Below are positions 43,961 to 51,390 of a stretch of DNA of 64,000 bases, in pieces. The notes beneath the pieces are model-generated. The model was not told the origin of the DNA. It saw only the letters and a list, made by a program, of their open reading frames with translations, and ran no database searches. The position numbers were made by a program, and so were the translations under genes. Origin of the DNA: Flavobacterium limnophilum (lineage in GTDB: Bacteria > Bacteroidota > Bacteroidia > Flavobacteriales > Flavobacteriaceae); assembly GCF_027111315.2 (NCBI RefSeq), contig NZ_CP114289.2, positions 682,001 to 746,000 on the forward strand, read 5' to 3'. Position 1 is the stretch's first letter. The number at the start of each line of letters is the position of its first letter.

Positions 43961-44722
43961 TTATCGAATCCCTTTTACAAACTCCCCGATTTTTCCAGAA
44001 CCATTTTCTTTTAAGTGCGTGATAAAAGCACTTCCTATAATCGCGCCTTTGGCAAATTGCGTGGCTTGATTGAAAGTTTCCTGATTACTAATTCCAAAAC
44101 CGATGATTTGTGGATTTTTCAGGTTCATGTCGGCGATGCGTTTGAAATAAGCTTCCTGTGTGCTTCCAAAACCGGATTGTGAACCCGTAACACTTGCCGA
44201 ACTTACCATGTAAATAAAGCCATCCGAAACGCTGTCGATAAAACGAATGCGCTCGTCCGAGGTTTGTGGCGTAATCAGGAAGATGTTTTTGAGTCCGTAT
44301 TTGTCGAAAGTGGCTTTGTATTCGTCGGCATATACATCAACGGGAAGGTCTGGAATGATTAGGCCGTCGATGCCGATTTCGGCACATTTCTGGCAAAAAG
44401 CTTCAACACCATATTGCAACATCGGGTTGAAATAACCCATAATTACCAACGGAATTGATACCGTTTTTCGAATAGCTGCCAGTTGGTCAAACAAAACCTG
44501 AGTGGTCATACCGTTGTGCAAAGCTTGGGTCGAACTCGCTTGAATTGTTGGGCCATCGGCCAAGGGATCGCTGAACGGCAGTCCGATTTCGATCATGTCG
44601 ACACCGTTTTTTTCCAAGTCTTGGATGATTTGTACAGTATCATTCAAACTGGGATAACCCGCCGAAAAATAGATGGAAAGTATTTTTTTGTCTTCTTGTA
44701 ATTTTTGGTTTATTCTGTTCAT
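43961..44722 (-). CDS. trpA: Tryptophan synthase alpha subunit
   Basis: TrpA cleaves indole-3-glycerol phosphate to indole and glyceraldehyde 3-phosphate inside the TrpA2B2 complex. The 253-aa TIM barrel carries the catalytic Glu45 (MIEIGLPFSD) and Asp56 (DPLADGPTI), PDLPVDVYADEY and the phosphate-binding GFGISN near the end. It is the last gene of the trp operon, separated from trpB by an unrelated small gene. Confidence 0.97.
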   Translation of the reverse strand: MNRINQKLQEDKKILSIYFSAGYPSLNDTVQIIQDLEKNGVDMIEIGLPFSDPLADGPTIQASSTQALHNGMTTQVLFDQLAAIRKTVSIPLVIMGYFNPMLQYGVEAFCQKCAEIGIDGLIIPDLPVDVYADEYKATFDKYGLKNIFLITPQTSDERIRFIDSVSDGFIYMVSSASVTGSQSGFGSTQEAYFKRIADMNLKNPQIIGFGISNQETFNQATQFAKGAIIGSAFITHLKENGSGKIGEFVKGIR

Positions 44723-44860: not shown

Positions 44861-45181
44861 TTATAGCGCAGCACTATAAACCCAAACCGTTTCGCTGGAA
44901 TGCAATTGCACTTGGATGCGTTTGTAATGCATTCCTTCGTATTTGTCGGCCAGTTCCAGGTCTCGTTCGCTGAGTTGGTAGCAGATTCCGTCGATGCTGT
45001 CCTCCGGGTTTTGGGTTTCGGCGATGATGGGATATTGGATGATTCCAAATTCTTCTTCGATAGGGATTCCCTTTACGGCATAGCCTATCAATTTGTCGGG
45101 AGTTCCTTTCAGCACGCGTCCAAAAACTCTTTCTTGAATCTCTTTGTCTTTTAATGTTCCGTAAGCAAATAAATTTTCCAT
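44861..45181 (-). CDS. Gamma-glutamylcyclotransferase-like (AIG2 family) protein inside the trp operon
   Basis: This 106-aa protein starts with the family motif FAYGTL (5-10) and has the conserved acidic residue Glu82 in KYEGMHYKRI. The family converts gamma-glutamyl-amino acids or related adducts to 5-oxoproline, but many members have other small substrates. It lies between trpB and trpA in the same direction, with repeat-filled gaps on both sides (107 bases to trpB, 138 to trpA). It may be co-transcribed with tryptophan genes by chance of insertion. Confidence 0.85.
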   Translation of the reverse strand: MENLFAYGTLKDKEIQERVFGRVLKGTPDKLIGYAVKGIPIEEEFGIIQYPIIAETQNPEDSIDGICYQLSERDLELADKYEGMHYKRIQVQLHSSETVWVYSAAL

Positions 45182-45288: not shown

Positions 45289-46470
45289 TTATAATTTAAA
45301 ATAATCTATATAAGTACTCAAATCTTTGTCGCCACGACCCGAAAGGCTGATGACCACGACATCGGTTGGTTTAAATTTTCTTTCTTTTAGGACTGACAAA
45401 GCGTGCGAGGATTCGATGGCGGGAATGATGCCCTCGAGCTTGCTTAATTCAAGACCGGATTGCATCGCATCATCATCGGTTACGGAGAAAAACTCCGCAC
45501 GTCCGGTTTGAGCCAAGTGTGCGTGCATTGGTCCAACACCTGGGTAATCGAGTCCAGCCGAAATCGAATAAGGCTCGGTAATTTGACCATCGGGAGTTTG
45601 CATCAAAAGGGTTTTGCAACCGTGAATCACACCTACTTTTCCGAGTTTGCTCGTGGCGGCACTGTGTCCAGAATTCACTCCTTTTCCAGCTGCTTCGACG
45701 GCGATGATACCTACTTTTTCTTCGTCTAGGAAATGGTAAAAAGTTCCTGCGGCATTACTTCCTCCACCGATGCAAGCTACAACATAATCAGGGTTTTCAC
45801 GTCCTTCTTTTTCCTGTAATTGCCATTTTATTTCTTCGGAAATGATGCTCTGGAAACGAGTCACCATATCAGGATAAGGATGTGGGCCAATGGCAGAGCC
45901 AATGATATAATGCGTATCAACCGGATTATTAATCCAGTCGCGGATGGCTTCGTTGGTGGCGTCTTTCAAGGTACGTGAACCCGAAAGTGCAGGTCGAACT
46001 TCGGCTCCCAACATTTTCATACGCGCCACGTTGGGTGCTTGGCGTTCGATGTCGATTTCGCCCATATAAACAATACATTCCAATCCCATCAAGGCACAAA
46101 CCGTAGCTGTTGCCACTCCGTGTTGTCCTGCTCCAGTTTCGGCAATGATACGTTTTTTACCTAGTTTTTGAGCAACCAATATTTGTCCAACAGTGTTGTT
46201 GATTTTGTGTGCTCCTGTATGGTTTAAATCTTCTCTTTTGAGATAGACTTTGGTGTTGTATTTTTCTGAAAGTCTTTTGGCAAAATACAAAGGACTCGGA
46301 CGACCCACATAATCTTTTAGCAGCTGGTCGAATTCTTTTTTGAAATCGGGTTGGGCTGTGATTTCAAGATATTTTTGGCGTAATTCCTCTACATTTGGAT
46401 ATAACATTTCGGGGATGTAAGCTCCTCCAAATTCTCCGTAATAGCCTTTTTCGTTAACGTTGTATGACAT
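45289..46470 (-). CDS. trpB: Tryptophan synthase beta subunit
   Basis: TrpB joins indole and L-serine to make tryptophan with pyridoxal phosphate. The 393-aa protein has the PLP lysine Lys89 in HTGAHKINN, the phosphate-binding [16 protein letters not shown] and the C-terminal SGRGDKDL. It lies two bases after trpF, a tight coupling. Confidence 0.98.
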
Positions 46471-46472
46471 TT

Positions 46473-47165
46473 TTATTTATTTATGTTTTGTGACAATTCG
46501 AAAATTGTCTTTACAAGATTTATATTTTTTAATCCAGGTTCTATTTCAAATTTACTGTTTACGTCAATGGCATAAACGGGTAAATTGGTTTTCAAAATTT
46601 CATTAACAGCCTCCATTTCTTCTAATCCGATTCCTCCACTTAGGAAAAAAGGTTTGGTTGATGGATAATTTTCCAATACTTTCCAATCGAAAGTGGTACC
46701 GTTTCCGCCGGGCAATTTTCCTTTGGTATCAAAAAGAAAATAATCACACATCTTTTCGAATGGTTTTAATGCTGCGAAGTCAAAGGTATCTAAAATTGAA
46801 AATACTTTTATGACTTCTATCGCTTTTGGTGCATTTTTTTTTAAATTTTCGCAAAACGCTACCGATTCATCTCCGTGAAGTTGAACGGCTTGTAAATCGT
46901 GTTTTGTAATTTTATCCAGAATTTCCTCCAAAGAGGCGTTGACAAAAACTCCCACTTTCTTGATTGATTTCGGCAACTCGGGAATGATGCCGTCAAAATA
47001 CCGTGCCGATTTTTCCCAGAATATAAAGCCCATATAATCGGGTAGGAGTGCGCCTACTTCGAGCATGTTTTCGGGGTATTTCATTCCGCAGATTTTAATC
47101 CCCACCCCAGCCCTCCCCGAAGGGGAGGGAGCCGAAGTATCTTGATGGTCTATTTGTTTTTTCAT
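46473..47165 (-). CDS. trpF: Phosphoribosylanthranilate isomerase with a repeat-derived N-terminus
   Basis: TrpF catalyses the Amadori rearrangement before indole-glycerol phosphate formation. The ATG at 47165 gives 230 aa; a longer frame starts at a TTG (47189). The family normally begins close to KICGM. Here an extra segment of about 22 residues precedes it ([20 protein letters not shown]), most of it encoded by a REP-like repeat (47101-47137). The enzyme body looks intact: [11 protein letters not shown] with the catalytic Cys, [26 protein letters not shown] with its Asp, FLSGGIG and AIDVNSKFE. Confidence 0.93.
47101..47137. repeat. REP-like palindrome inside the 5' end of trpF (copy B)
   Basis: CCCTCCCC-GAA-GGGGAGGG with a CCCACCCCAG shoulder. 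It is translated in the trpF frame as part of the N-terminal extension. Confidence 0.75.
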
Positions 47166-47169
47166 TTTA

Positions 47170-47228
47170 AGTTTGAACACAGATTTCAAAAAATTAATTC
47201 GTGTTAATTTGTGAAATTCGTGTCTTTA
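47170..47228. repeat. Dispersed repeat text between trpC and trpF
   Basis: A phrase of the AACACAGATTTCAAA ... GTTAATTTGTGAAATTCGTG kind, shared with the texts at 16890 and 44798. It also overlaps the last codons of trpC. Confidence 0.4.
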
Positions 47229-48007
47229 TTTAATTGCTTAATAAATTCCGTTGCTGCTTTTCCAGCATTGTCTGTTTTCATGAAGTTTTCTCCAATCAAG
47301 AATCCTTTGTAACCATAAGGTTTTAGTTCGTTGATGGCTTCGATGGATGAAATCCCGCTTTCGGAGACTTTCACGAAATCATTCGGGATTTGGTTGGCCA
47401 ATTGCTTGCTGAAATCCAGACTCACTTCGAAAGTTTTCAGGTTTCGGTTGTTCACGCCAATCATGTTCAAAGTCGGCATTATGGATTTTTCCAATTCTTC
47501 CAAATTGTGTACTTCCAACAACACTTCCAATCCCAAACCTTTGGCAAATTCTGATAATGATTTTATTTCTTCTCTTGTCAAAACCGCTGCAATTAGCAAA
47601 ATCAAATCGGCTCCGTGGGCTTTGGCTTCCAATATTTGGTATTCGTCCACGATGAATTCTTTTCGCAATAACGGAATGTTTACCGAAGCTCTGGCCAAAA
47701 GTAAATCGTCCAATGAACCGCCAAAATACTTGCCATCCGTTAAAACCGAAATTCCGCAAGCGCCGGCACTTTCATATCCTTTTACCACTTCTTCGACCGT
47801 GAAACTGTAATTGATTTCGGCTTTGGAAGGCGAACGGCGTTTGTGTTCGGCGATGATTCCAGAGTTGCTGTTTTTTAAATTTTGGCTTAAAGAAATGGTC
47901 TTTTTTCCAAAGAAAACCGAAGCTTCCAATTGGGAAACTGGAATGATGGATTTCTTGAGAATGACTTCTCTTTTTTTGTCAACTATGATTCTATCTAAAA
48001 TATTCAT
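47204..48007 (-). CDS. trpC: Indole-3-glycerol phosphate synthase
   Basis: TrpC closes the indole ring by decarboxylation. The 267-aa barrel shows EHKRRSPSKAEIN, the YESAGACGISVLTD block, LLRKEFIVDEYQI and the catalytic GVNNRNLKTFEV, with SESGISS near the end. It is not fused to TrpF, unlike in E. coli. It is followed by trpF and lies 5 bases after trpD. Confidence 0.97.
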   Translation of the reverse strand: MNILDRIIVDKKREVILKKSIIPVSQLEASVFFGKKTISLSQNLKNSNSGIIAEHKRRSPSKAEINYSFTVEEVVKGYESAGACGISVLTDGKYFGGSLDDLLLARASVNIPLLRKEFIVDEYQILEAKAHGADLILLIAAVLTREEIKSLSEFAKGLGLEVLLEVHNLEELEKSIMPTLNMIGVNNRNLKTFEVSLDFSKQLANQIPNDFVKVSESGISSIEAINELKPYGYKGFLIGENFMKTDNAGKAATEFIKQLNKDTNFTN

Positions 48008-48012
48008 GTGTT

Positions 48013-49005
48013 TTATCTACTTAATTCTTGTAATTTATTCAAAGCCAAAAGTGCTTTTCCAGAAAGCAGGCTTTCTTTTGCCAATTGAAAACTTTCCAAA
48101 GGCGAAGTTCCATTCACCGTTGCAATGGCCATTGCGGCATTGGCACAAACCACGTTGTTTTGGGCTTCGTTTCCTTGACCAGAAATGATGTTCATGAACA
48201 TTTCGGCCGATTCCTCGATGGTTTTTCCGCCTTCGATTTCGCTTTGCAACAATTGTCGAACGCCAAAATCAGCAGGATTTAGAACACCTTCTTTGGTATT
48301 GGAAATAAATTTGGTTGGACAAGTTAGCGAAACTTCGTCATATCCTTCCAATGAATGCAAAATAGTGAAATTTATATCCGTGTTTTGGTATAAATATCCG
48401 TACATTCTAGCCAGTTCCAAGTTGAAAACACCCACTGATTGATTTTTAGGAAATGATGGGTTTATCATTGGTCCCAACATATTAAAAAAGGTTCTGGCTC
48501 CTAATTCTTTTCGAATTGGTCCCACGTTTTTCATTGCTGGATGAAATAATGGTGCGTGCAAAATACAAATACCGGCTTGGTCGATGCACTTTTCCAGAAA
48601 AGCATTATCGTTACTGAATTTTACGCCCAATTTTTCCATTACATTACTCGAACCCGAAATGGATGAAACACCGTAATTACCGTGTTTCGCCACTTTGATT
48701 CCTGCTCCAGCAGCCACAAATGATGCCAAAGTCGAGATATTGAAAGTATCTTTGCCATCGCCACCGGTTCCGCATAAATCGATGGTGTTGTAGGCGGATA
48801 AATCTACCCGAACACACAAATCCAACAAGGCTTCGCGAAAGCCCGAAAGTTCATCAATACTGATGCTTCTCATCATATAAACGGTAAGAAAGGAAGCAAT
48901 TTGGCTTGGATTGTAACTTCCGTTGGAAATGTTTACCAATACATTTTTGGCCTCTTCCTTGGAAAGTATTTCGTGATTGATCAGTCTGTTTAATATGGTT
49001 TTCAT
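48013..49005 (-). CDS. trpD: Anthranilate phosphoribosyltransferase
   Basis: TrpD transfers phosphoribose from PRPP to anthranilate. The 330-aa protein has the PRPP-binding LCGTGGDGKDTFNISTL, KHGNYGVSSISGSSNVMEKLG, FFNMLGPMINP and the C-terminal AAMAIATVNGTSPLESF. It is stand-alone, not fused to TrpG. A repeat-derived 64-base gap separates it from trpG. Confidence 0.97.
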   Translation of the reverse strand: MKTILNRLINHEILSKEEAKNVLVNISNGSYNPSQIASFLTVYMMRSISIDELSGFREALLDLCVRVDLSAYNTIDLCGTGGDGKDTFNISTLASFVAAGAGIKVAKHGNYGVSSISGSSNVMEKLGVKFSNDNAFLEKCIDQAGICILHAPLFHPAMKNVGPIRKELGARTFFNMLGPMINPSFPKNQSVGVFNLELARMYGYLYQNTDINFTILHSLEGYDEVSLTCPTKFISNTKEGVLNPADFGVRQLLQSEIEGGKTIEESAEMFMNIISGQGNEAQNNVVCANAAMAIATVNGTSPLESFQLAKESLLSGKALLALNKLQELSR

Positions 49006-49029: not shown

Positions 49030-49074
49030 CGTAGAGACGTTGCAGTAGAGACGTTGCAGTGGAACGTCTCTACG
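49030..49074. repeat. GTAGAGACG hairpin repeat between trpG and trpD
   Basis: CGTAGAGACGTT at 49030-49041 is complementary to AACGTCTCTACG at 49063-49074, with a tandem copy GTAGAGACGTTGCA in between. The right end provides the TAG stop of trpG (49070-49072). This is the dispersed GTAGAGACG palindrome of Bacteroidota. Confidence 0.65.
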
Positions 49075-49636
49075 ATTTTAACCAATTCTCCAAAATCTTC
49101 TTTCCGTTTGGTGTCAACACACTTTCAGGATGAAATTGTACACCACGAACATCAAACGTTTTATGACGCAAAGACATTACTTGCCCGTTTTCGTCGAAAG
49201 AAGTAGCTTCCAGAACATCAGGTAAATCGGCATCGACAACCCAAGAATGGTAGCGTCCCACTTCGAATTCATTTCCCAAGCCTTCGAATAAAAGTTCATC
49301 GTTAACCGATGTTTTTACCATTGAAGAAACGCCGTGATATACTTTATCTAAATTCGAAAGTGTTCCTCCAAAAACTTCTCCGATGGCTTGTTGACCCAAG
49401 CAAACTCCTAGAATACTTTTCGTTGGAGCGTATTTGGCAATCACCGTTTTTAATAAACCAGCTTCATCTGGAATTCCAGGTCCCGGAGAAAGTAATATTT
49501 TGTCGAAATGCGAGATTTCGTCGATATCAAATTCATCGTTTCTGTAAACGGTAACTTCGCAATCTAAATCTTCCAGATAATGCACCAAGTTGTACGTGAA
49601 GCTATCGTAATTGTCTATGACTAGTATTTTTTTCAT
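49070..49636 (-). CDS. trpG: Anthranilate synthase component II (glutamine amidotransferase)
   Basis: TrpG hydrolyses glutamine and passes ammonia to TrpE. The 188-aa class I amidotransferase has Cys79 in LGVCLGQQ, the oxyanion PGPG and His169/Glu171 in FHPES. It starts MKKILVIDNYDSFTYNLVHY, the usual start. It may also serve p-aminobenzoate synthesis, as in some bacteria, but the operon position supports tryptophan. Its stop codon lies in a dispersed repeat. Confidence 0.96.
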   Translation of the reverse strand: MKKILVIDNYDSFTYNLVHYLEDLDCEVTVYRNDEFDIDEISHFDKILLSPGPGIPDEAGLLKTVIAKYAPTKSILGVCLGQQAIGEVFGGTLSNLDKVYHGVSSMVKTSVNDELLFEGLGNEFEVGRYHSWVVDADLPDVLEATSFDENGQVMSLRHKTFDVRGVQFHPESVLTPNGKKILENWLKS

Positions 49637-49702: not shown

Positions 49703-51103
49703 TTATATTGTCTCTGCCAAATCCAACGCTTTGTTCAGCGCCAATAATTTATTGTAAACCTCTTGCATTTCGCTCTCTTCATTTGAATCTGCCACAATTC
49801 CAGCACCGGCTTGTGAATGCAATTGGTGGTTTTTGCTCAGGAACGTTCGAATCATGATGGCGTGATTGAAGTTGCCTTCAAAATCCATAAAACCAATAGC
49901 ACCTCCGTAAAAATTACGATTTGTTTTTTCGTAATCTTCTATCAATTGCATTGCTCTGTGTTTTGGTGCTCCGCTTAAAGTTCCTGCCGGGAATGTGTCG
50001 GCAACGACTTGCATCGTGGTGGCTTTTTCGTGTAAATGTCCCGTCACTTTGGAAACTAAATGAATTACGTGGGAGAAAAACTGAACTTCTCTGTATTTCT
50101 CCACTTGCACACCGTGTCCGTGACGGCTTAAATCGTTTCGAGCTAAATCGACCAACATCACGTGTTCGCTGTTTTCTTTTTTGTCTTCGGATAGATTTTT
50201 GGCTAAAACTGCATCTTTTTCATCGTCTCCAGTTCGTCTGAAAGTTCCAGCTATTGGATGAATTTCGGCTTTGCGGTTTTTGACAATGATTTGGGCTTCG
50301 GGTGAAGAGCCGAATATCTTGAAATCGCCATAATCAAAAAAGAATAGGTAAGGGGAAGGGTTGATGCTTCTCAAGGCTCTGTACACATTGAATTCATCGC
50401 CTTTGAAACCTTGGGTAAATCTTCTAGACAACACCAATTGGAACACATCGCCTCTATGACAATGTTTTTTGGCTAAAGCAACGTTGTGTTTGAATTCTTC
50501 GTCTGTTAAGTTGGATTTTCCTTCGCCTTCACGGGTAAATTTATAAGAGGCAATATTTCGGGATTGCAACAATTGTTCGATTTCCGAAATGTTGTTTTTT
50601 CCGTCCACGCTGTGACAGAAAATATAAGCTTCGTTTTTGAAATGATTGATGGCAATGATGTTTTGGTACACCGCATAATATACATCTGGAATGGTGGTTT
50701 CCTCGTCTTTTTTGGCGATGGTCACTTTTTCGAAATAACGTACGGCATCATAAGATATGTAACCAAACAATCCGTTGTTGATGAATTTGAAATCGTTTTT
50801 CTCGGATTGGAACTGTCCTGAAAATTCCTGGATTACTTGCGGAATATCAATGTTTTTGTCTATTGAAATAGTTTCAGAACTTCCGTCGGGAAAGGTTTTG
50901 AAAATGGTTTCGTTTTCGATTTTTATGGAAGCAATCGGGTTGCAACAGATATAGGAAAAACTGTTGTCGTTGCCGTGATAATCGCTACTTTCCAAAAGCA
51001 GACTGTTTGGATATTTGTCGCGAATTTTGAAATACACGCTTACGGGAGTAATCGTGTCGGCAAGGATTTGCTTGTAATTTGTATTTAAAATAAATGTTTT
51101 CAT
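49703..51103 (-). CDS. trpE: Anthranilate synthase component I
   Basis: TrpE converts chorismate and ammonia to anthranilate. The 466-aa protein has the N-terminal tryptophan-binding LLES motif (about 35-38), the chorismate-binding core (FGSSPEAQIIVKNRKAEIHPIAGTFRRT, ENSEHVMLVDLARND), and the DTFPAGTLSGAPK and GGAIGFMDFEGNFNHAI blocks. Tryptophan feedback is expected from the LLES site. It is the first structural gene of the operon, with an attenuator and two REP-like repeats upstream. Confidence 0.97.
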   Translation of the reverse strand: MKTFILNTNYKQILADTITPVSVYFKIRDKYPNSLLLESSDYHGNDNSFSYICCNPIASIKIENETIFKTFPDGSSETISIDKNIDIPQVIQEFSGQFQSEKNDFKFINNGLFGYISYDAVRYFEKVTIAKKDEETTIPDVYYAVYQNIIAINHFKNEAYIFCHSVDGKNNISEIEQLLQSRNIASYKFTREGEGKSNLTDEEFKHNVALAKKHCHRGDVFQLVLSRRFTQGFKGDEFNVYRALRSINPSPYLFFFDYGDFKIFGSSPEAQIIVKNRKAEIHPIAGTFRRTGDDEKDAVLAKNLSEDKKENSEHVMLVDLARNDLSRHGHGVQVEKYREVQFFSHVIHLVSKVTGHLHEKATTMQVVADTFPAGTLSGAPKHRAMQLIEDYEKTNRNFYGGAIGFMDFEGNFNHAIMIRTFLSKNHQLHSQAGAGIVADSNEESEMQEVYNKLLALNKALDLAETI

Positions 51104-51107
51104 ATTT

Positions 51108-51140
51108 CCTCCCCCAGCCCCTCCGAAGGAGGGGAGTGCC
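51108..51140. repeat. REP-like palindrome upstream of trpE (copy C)
   Basis: CCCCTCC-GAA-GGAGGGG with a CCTCCCCCAG shoulder, in the same orientation as the trpF copy. Confidence 0.75.
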
Positions 51141-51198
51141 TATTGGGGTAAATAGGGTTTTAATTAATATTTTTTTTAGTTACTAATTTTTGATCTCG

Positions 51199-51232
51199 TC
51201 TCCCTCCCCTTCGGGAAGGGTTGGGGTGGGGA
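51199..51232. repeat. REP-like element upstream of trpE (copy D, inverted relative to C)
   Basis: CTCCCTCCCCTTCGGGAAGG with a GTTGGGGTGGGG shoulder. C and D face each other across about 58 bases, as paired REP (REPIN) units do. Confidence 0.7.
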
Positions 51233-51233
51233 A

Positions 51234-51268
51234 CAAAAAAAAGGCTTGTCGTGATGACAAGCCTTTTA
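51234..51268 (-). terminator. Attenuator terminator of the trp operon
   Basis: Minus-strand AAAAGGCTTGTC / GACAAGCCTTTT with a 5-base loop and a T-tract of eight. It lies 30 bases after the trpL stop codon and 130 bases before trpE. A 7-base segment at its loop and 3' arm (51248-51254) is complementary to 51299-51305 at the end of trpL, which forms the antiterminator. Confidence 0.9.
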
Positions 51269-51298
51269 TATTTATAGTTTATACTACAGGTGCTTTGT

Positions 51299-51355
51299 TC
51301 ACGACGATTGACGTAAATTGTTCCACCACCAAGTATTTTTTAAAATCGTTTTCAT
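51299..51355 (-). CDS. trpL: trp operon leader peptide with three consecutive Trp codons
   Basis: The 18-codon frame reads MKTILKNTWWWNNLRQSS and stops with TGA. Three TGG codons in a row (codons 9-11) are the hallmark of a leader peptide that senses charged tRNA-Trp. The stop codon lies within GTCGTGA (51299-51305, minus strand), the antiterminator half. A ribosome stalled at the Trp codons would leave that segment free to pair with the terminator; a ribosome that reaches the stop would cover it and let the terminator form. The gene was found by reading the leader; it is too short for standard gene finding. Confidence 0.9.
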   Translation of the reverse strand: MKTILKNTWWWNNLRQSS

Positions 51356-51359
51356 TCCA

Positions 51360-51390
51360 CAAATATATAAATCAAATTTGATTATCCAAA
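51360..51390 (-). promoter_or_regulatory. Consensus promoter of the trp operon
   Basis: TTTG (51390-51387) and TATATTTG (51367-51360) are separated by 19 bases, an exact Bacteroidota -33/-7 pair. The -7 box ends four bases before the trpL ATG, so the transcript probably starts at or next to the start codon. The spacer contains a perfect 12-base palindrome ATCAAATTTGAT (51371-51382), a possible operator. Confidence 0.8.

Follow-up and report, generated by a model that had tools for sequence, protein, structure and literature searches.

A tryptophan attenuator of the Bacteroid-trp family in Flavobacterium limnophilum and the two-state spacing of its promoter, predicted to yield a leaderless transcript

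The trp operon of Flavobacterium limnophilum is very probably controlled by a ribosome-mediated transcription attenuator belonging to the Rfam family RF01692 (Bacteroid-trp), whose transcription would start at or beside the AUG of the leader peptide gene trpL; this reading draws on sequence comparison and structure models of the 64,000-nucleotide stretch of DNA analysed here (the window) and of its relatives. The attenuator is an ordinary member of a known and named family and the kind itself is not new: Bacteroid-trp was named in 2010 (Weinberg et al., PMC2864571) and is already noted upstream of the trp operon in F. psychrophilum (PMC6414381). What matters more than an attenuator that is mostly known, and is worth a second look, is the two-state spacing between the promoter and the leader. 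The promoter–AUG spacing, unremarked in the preliminary description of the locus, predicts a leaderless transcript and constitutes a new, testable architectural point. With less assurance, we favour the view that the Bacteroidota trp attenuator has two promoter states, one leadered (predicted 5′ UTR of about 12–15 nt in Flavobacterium) and one exactly leaderless, as in this genome, and that Flavobacterium lineages have switched several times. The features of the locus are collected in Table 1.

Table 1. Features of the trp leader and operon, in window positions
Feature	Position	Strand	Basis or remark
TTTG, −33-like element (19-nt spacing to the −7 box)	51390–51387	minus	sequence; published Bacteroidota consensus motif
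−7 box TATATTTG (consensus TAnnTTTG)	51367–51360	minus	sequence; position from published data
Predicted +1 (A of the trpL AUG), 4 nt downstream of the −7 box	51355	minus	inference from box spacing
trpL leader peptide MKTILKNTWWWNNLRQSS, 18 codons	51355–51299	minus	sequence; frame kept in relatives
trpL start ATG	51355–51353	minus	sequence
trpL stop TGA	51301–51299	minus	sequence
Three tandem TGG (Trp) codons, part of segment 1	51331–51323	minus	sequence; WWW in 137/141 relatives
Segment 1:2 helix, ATACT 51336–51332:AGTAT 51285–51281 and GGTG 51327–51324:CACC 51292–51289	51336–51281	minus	RNAfold of whole leader; Rfam consensus helix
Segment 2a GTCGTGA, pairs with 51254–51248	51305–51299	minus	sequence, RNAfold, relatives, covariation counts
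Segment 2b AAGC, pairs with GCTT 51262–51259 of the terminator 5′ arm	51295–51292	minus	RNAfold
Intrinsic terminator, 12-bp stem, loop ATCAC and T run	51267–51235	minus	sequence, RNAfold, two-sided changes in relatives
Terminator 5′ arm AAAAGGCTTGTC	51267–51256	minus	sequence
Terminator loop ATCAC	51255–51251	minus	sequence
Terminator 3′ arm GACAAGCCTTTT	51250–51239	minus	sequence
Terminator T run	51242–51235	minus	sequence
trpE, first structural gene	49703–51103	minus	
trpG	49070–49636	minus	downstream of trpE
trpD	48013–49005	minus	downstream of trpE
trpC	47204–48007	minus	downstream of trpE
trpF	46473–47189	minus	downstream of trpC
trpB	45289–46470	minus	downstream of trpC
GGACT (gamma-glutamyl cyclotransferase-like) gene	44861–45181	minus	Pfam PF06094; between trpB and trpA
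trpA	43961–44722	minus	downstream of trpC

The Rfam scan of the 64-kb window matched RF01692 at 51375–51256 over the whole model (positions 1–131) with 68.9 bits against a gathering score of 49, and the 4.5-Mb genome holds a single copy above that score (E 3.1e-8). RF01692 is the only family exceeding its gathering score in the window: nine other matches (Phe_leader, GibS, BTnc231 and others) fell below theirs and were treated as chance, and a T-box leader was rejected, no T-box match over threshold being found in the window. A match (E ≤ 0.001) occurs in 141 of 199 sampled genomes of the same family, this one included, and 123 pass the cut-off; the 58 genomes yielding no match have to be read in the light of search filters that lose weak matches. 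A wider sample of the phylum gave matches in 42 of 395 genomes, seven of them outside the family. The preliminary description had recognized an 18-codon frame with three consecutive TGG codons at 51331–51323, coordinates that proved right on re-reading, and had proposed conservation of this WWW frame in relatives as a test. The answer is positive, WWW being kept in 137 of the 141 same-family loci. In 132 of them the first Trp codon comes eight codons after the start (nine in L135, whose leader has 22 aa); the start codon is ATG in 135, TTG in four and GTG in two. In 140 loci trpE lies downstream in the same orientation, the exception (L131) being cut by the end of its contig.

Downstream of the leader the genes succeed one another on the same strand in the order trpE-G-D-C-F-B-A, and the element thus lies upstream of tryptophan genes, the position described for RF01692. 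The NCBIfam cut-off is passed by trpD, trpC, trpB and trpA, and the subfamily model TIGR00566 is the sole NCBIfam model passed by trpG. For trpE, Pfam PF04715 and PF00425 are passed and no NCBIfam cut-off is passed among the matches listed, while trpF passes no model, all 13 models that match it being phosphoribosylanthranilate isomerase or fusions with it.

A GC-rich inverted-repeat insertion (51104–51238, minus strand), with 13 matches in the genome, itself counted, separates the trp terminator from the trpE ATG. Folding of 51240–51080 gives −55.5 kcal/mol (z −4.5) with pairing that extends to the trpE start, and the insertion could act as a damper of trpE translation. When the 200 nt before trpE were searched for an inverted repeat in the best 80 Flavobacterium relatives listed, a loose pattern hit two loci and inspection by eye retained L236 only. 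A second copy (88% complementary) is located at 47093–47135, in frame near the N-terminus of trpF, where it is apparently translated (11 residues).

The strong terminator initially placed at 51234–51268 is present at 51267–51235, with an energy of −17.0 kcal/mol (RNAfold, 51270–51230). It is found in 140 of the 141 family loci, L131 again being truncated by its contig end, and RNAalifold on the 140-locus alignment reveals two-sided changes at seven of the ten consensus pairs of its stem in relatives.

The pairing of GTCGTGA with 51254–51248, also proposed initially, is borne out, since the segment at 51305–51299 is the perfect 7-bp complement of TCACGAC at 51254–51248. The gap from the last Trp codon, first put at about 18 bases, is of that size and counts exactly 17 nt. 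The seven base pairs exist, but the antiterminator is larger than they are and engages, according to RNAfold, the loop and part of both terminator arms: for a transcript ended at 51248 with a ribosome on the Trp codons, GUCGUGA:UCACGAC is accompanied by AAGC:GCUU (51295–51292:51262–51259), for a total of −14.5 kcal/mol, so that part of the terminator 5′ arm is included as well. The AAGC:GCUU columns pair less regularly in relatives. As for the competing helix between segments 1 and 2, the RF01692 consensus hairpin aligns here with several non-standard pairs and is recovered in part in the RNAfold structure. Once the whole terminator is present, RNAfold favours it even with segment 2 free, and antitermination would therefore have to be kinetic, governed by timing and not by final stability.

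Among 140 relatives, 134 pair segment 2 with the loop region over 6 bp or more and 109 over 7 bp or more, as compared with 15.6% and 3.5%, respectively, of 7000 base-composition shuffles of the leaders; six relatives stop at 5 bp, and L077 and L135 match in an unusual manner. Covariation was counted over the seven antiterminator pairs in a MAFFT alignment of 140 loci. In this alignment 88.9% of cells are paired and four of the seven pairs display two-sided changes (ten such cells), and none of 500 shuffles reached any of the five antiterminator measures. Among the pairings replaced in relatives are TCGTAAAC with GTTTACGA and TTGTCGCAAT with ATTGCGACAA. Conservation of the 7-base pairing, the second test put forward in the preliminary description, is thereby answered in the affirmative. 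The outermost pair (columns 31–108) is unpaired in 86 of the 140 loci, and with the partner strand shifted by +3 columns the covariation score rises from 0.051 to 0.069, but only 50.2% of cells are paired. RNAalifold, applied to the 140-locus alignment, predicted the terminator and not the antiterminator. Closer to F. limnophilum, 79 of 81 Flavobacterium loci (the best 80 relatives listed and the window) could be parsed by script, terminators being visible in the two that it missed (L241 and L242); the pairing measures 6 bp in one, 7 bp in 76 and 9 bp in two of the 79. The loop reads ATGAC instead of ATCAC in four of them, and in the three inspected (L246, L247 and L248) segment 2 carries no matching change, the pairing measuring 9 and 7 bp in a shifted register or being reduced to 6 bp. 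Taken at the level of sequence, the antiterminator is predicted to be exclusive with the terminator, and its two strands evolve as a pair.

The comparison of relatives also indicates what is held constant in this architecture. Of 140 loci, 136 have segment 2 beginning 17–19 nt downstream of the last Trp codon, while the leader peptide ranges from 13 to 22 aa and its stop codon falls anywhere from 6 to about 30 nt past the last Trp codon. By eye, the UGA of CGUGA doubles as the stop codon in the 18-aa form encountered here; in the usual 15-aa form the stop precedes CGUGA, and in the usual 20-aa form this UGA is read out of frame. The preliminary description had located the pairing segment at the leader stop codon, which is true of this locus, but the coincidence is not conserved and the distance from the Trp codons is. 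The proposition that the end of the leader is tied to the pairing segment was rejected, as the stop moves and the segment does not. Because segment 2 keeps its distance from the Trp codons while the stop shifts, the constraint acts on the RNA and on its distance from the stall codons, as the mechanism needs. The C-terminal half of the peptide is variable in length and sequence; the RNA element keeps its position.

The locus and its relatives thus display the parts, their conservation, the two-sided changes and the predicted folds of an attenuator, with a short frame carrying tandem codons of the regulated amino acid and an intrinsic terminator before the first structural gene. By analogy with the trp system of Escherichia coli, stalling, timing and read-through may be pictured as follows. 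Transcription would start at or beside the trpL AUG, promoter spacing pointing to a leaderless start. When charged tRNA-Trp is scarce, the ribosome would stall on the Trp codons (51331–51323) and break the helix with 51292–51281; the freed segment 2 (51305–51292) would then pair with 51262–51248 before the terminator stem is complete, allowing read-through into trpE. When Trp is plentiful, a ribosome at the stop codon would cover segment 2 and the terminator would form, and if no ribosome is loaded both the 1:2 helix and the terminator would be expected. Conservation of WWW and of the pairing, together with the two-sided changes, supports at sequence level the classical attenuation originally read from the locus.

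The consensus promoter claimed from the outset is there as well, with the −7 box TATATTTG and TTTG 19 nt upstream. This motif corresponds to the published Bacteroidota consensus (PMC7366714). The F. johnsoniae data show the −33-like TTTG element weakly and have the −7 element spanning −12 to −5, that is, 4 or 5 nt before the start (PMC6847099); the position given for F. psychrophilum agrees (PMC9723704). With 4 nt separating the last base of the box (51360) from the first base of the AUG (51355), the predicted +1 is the A of the AUG, and the promoter spacing predicts a leaderless trpL transcript with a 5′ UTR of 0 nt. Bacteroidota are described as devoid of Shine-Dalgarno sequences, with leaderless mRNAs uncommon (PMC7366714, PMC9723704, PMC6847099). 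Inside the window, 11 of 48 frames have a box and one of these is at distance 4, too small a sample, and published data supplied the base rate for short distances: 5′ UTRs below 10 nt amount to about 3.7% in B. thetaiotaomicron (PMC7366714). Among the matches listed in a search of the open-licence literature, we found no report of leaderless leader peptides in Bacteroidota.

The distance separating box and AUG was followed across relatives. A −7 box is found in 136 of the 141 family loci, at distance 4–5 in 27, at most 9 in 47 and at least 10 in 89 (71 of these at 14–22), so that family-wide the values are spread with two peaks and in-between values occur. A partial TrpE tree requires 19 changes between distances of at most 9 and longer ones, compared with a mean of 39 for shuffled labels; the distance state is therefore inherited yet often changing. 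All 20 same-genus loci from the genome search, window excluded, stand at 16–20, and three further same-genus genomes gave no RF01692 match in that search. A set confined to near relatives was assembled from the best 80 TrpE relatives listed among named genomes and the window. These 81 Flavobacterium loci fall into a short class at exactly 4 (14 loci) and a long class at 16–19 (67 loci), with none between. Named members of the two classes include Flavobacterium frigoris DSM 15719 (L175) at distance 4 and F. saccharophilum DSM 1811 (L196) at distance 18. The trpE nucleotide tree of the same loci requires five changes between classes, against a mean of 13 and a least value of 10 in 300 shuffles, although several key nodes are weakly supported and neither the direction nor the exact number of changes is settled. 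In this tree the window is joined first by L172 (support 0.98) and next by L173 (0.93), both at distance 4. In the aligned trpE starts, TTG is present in 11 of the 14 short-class loci (a class that includes L173, L175, L187 and L188) whereas the window and L172 have ATG; the L192 match starts one codon later.

These distances bear on the best-surviving alternative, in which the attenuator works as described but has an ordinary 5′ UTR from another upstream promoter, trpL being then not leaderless. We regard it as unlikely, though it has points in its favour: leaderless mRNAs are uncommon, at 5.5% in F. psychrophilum (PMC9723704), in F. johnsoniae 87% of predicted leaders exceed 10 nt (PMC6847099), within the present genome the box stands 34 nt before the ATG of the his leader and 29 nt before that of the phe leader, and the share of A at −3 is equal in the short and long classes (36% and 37%). 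Against it, there is only one TAHHTTTG box within 160 nt upstream of the trpL ATG, the distance among the 81 loci is either 4 or 16–19, and positions −4 and −2, rich in A in the long class (72% and 81%), carry A far less often in the short class (21% and 36%), positions −5 and −6 being not comparable because they lie inside the box in the short class. If the two-state spacing with an exactly leaderless form is true, the first ribosome must load on a bare 5′ AUG, and the output of the operon would depend on 70S/leaderless initiation as well as on tRNA-Trp. A regulatory peptide needing efficient initiation would seem to have reached the exactly leaderless state on more than one occasion within a group of close relatives, and the two spacings would offer natural matched pairs for studying leaderless initiation in Bacteroidota.

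A further proposal, which we consider improbable, adds a second role to the one in cis: once terminated, the leader RNA (about 120 nt, AUG-first) would be a stable small RNA, or give a peptide, acting on other transcripts like rnTrpL/peTrpL of Sinorhizobium meliloti. The layout is the same in that organism, with a leaderless AUG start and a termination product (PMC7298713), but the conservation seen here suits a function in cis, since the peptide varies in its C-terminal half while the RNA element stays put. Least credible is a plain intergenic terminator preceded by an accidental, untranslated WWW frame, for although the trpL frame is known here from its sequence, WWW is present in 137 of 141 loci at a near-fixed distance from both the start and the pairing segment and trpE comes next in 140 of 141, and a terminator without leader translation was rejected.

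Other leader peptides are encoded in the same genome. Upstream of hisG (L168) lies a His leader MLSIQLHHHHFHYCSQAMC with its box 34 nt upstream, and upstream of the prephenate dehydratase gene (L171) a Phe leader MSHNRFYFSNTYYFFFRK with its box 29 nt upstream; each is followed by a hairpin that looks terminator-like by eye. Given these two boxes, leaderlessness as a general property of the leader peptides in this genome was rejected. No leader was seen at the two ilvD-family loci themselves. In F. psychrophilum, structured 5′ elements are reported before pheA and hisG (PMC9723704).

The ribosome-mediated attenuator of F. limnophilum can finally be set beside known systems. It shares with the RF01692 model the Trp-rich leader before trp genes, and it aligns with the consensus hairpin, several pairs of which are non-standard here, and with the terminator 5′ arm. 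The model ends at that 5′ arm (model position 131), omits the loop and 3′ arm used by the antiterminator and holds no promoter spacing; the present attenuator is one more well-conserved case that highlights the antiterminator half omitted by the model. The trp attenuator of E. coli combines two tandem Trp codons, a terminator and a mutually exclusive antiterminator. The F. limnophilum leader resembles it in all three respects and differs by its three Trp codons rather than two in a peptide of 18 aa, by a segment 2 that pairs mainly with the terminator loop and the first part of the 3′ arm, and by a predicted 5′ UTR of 0 nt, which leaves no Shine-Dalgarno. Within the genus, the likeness to the leader attenuators of F. 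psychrophilum consists in Bacteroid-trp before the trp operon (PMC6414381) and in the elements before pheA and hisG, where the F. limnophilum genome has leader frames. Beyond the phylum, Trp leader peptides on transcripts starting at the AUG are described for trpL of S. meliloti (PMC7298713) and for trpL1 MFAHSTRNWWWTAHPAAH, located before trpE in Streptomyces lividans (PMC8079986); the transcript start is given as known in these sources and is predicted from promoter spacing here. The S. lividans peptide is likewise 18 aa long and carries WWW.
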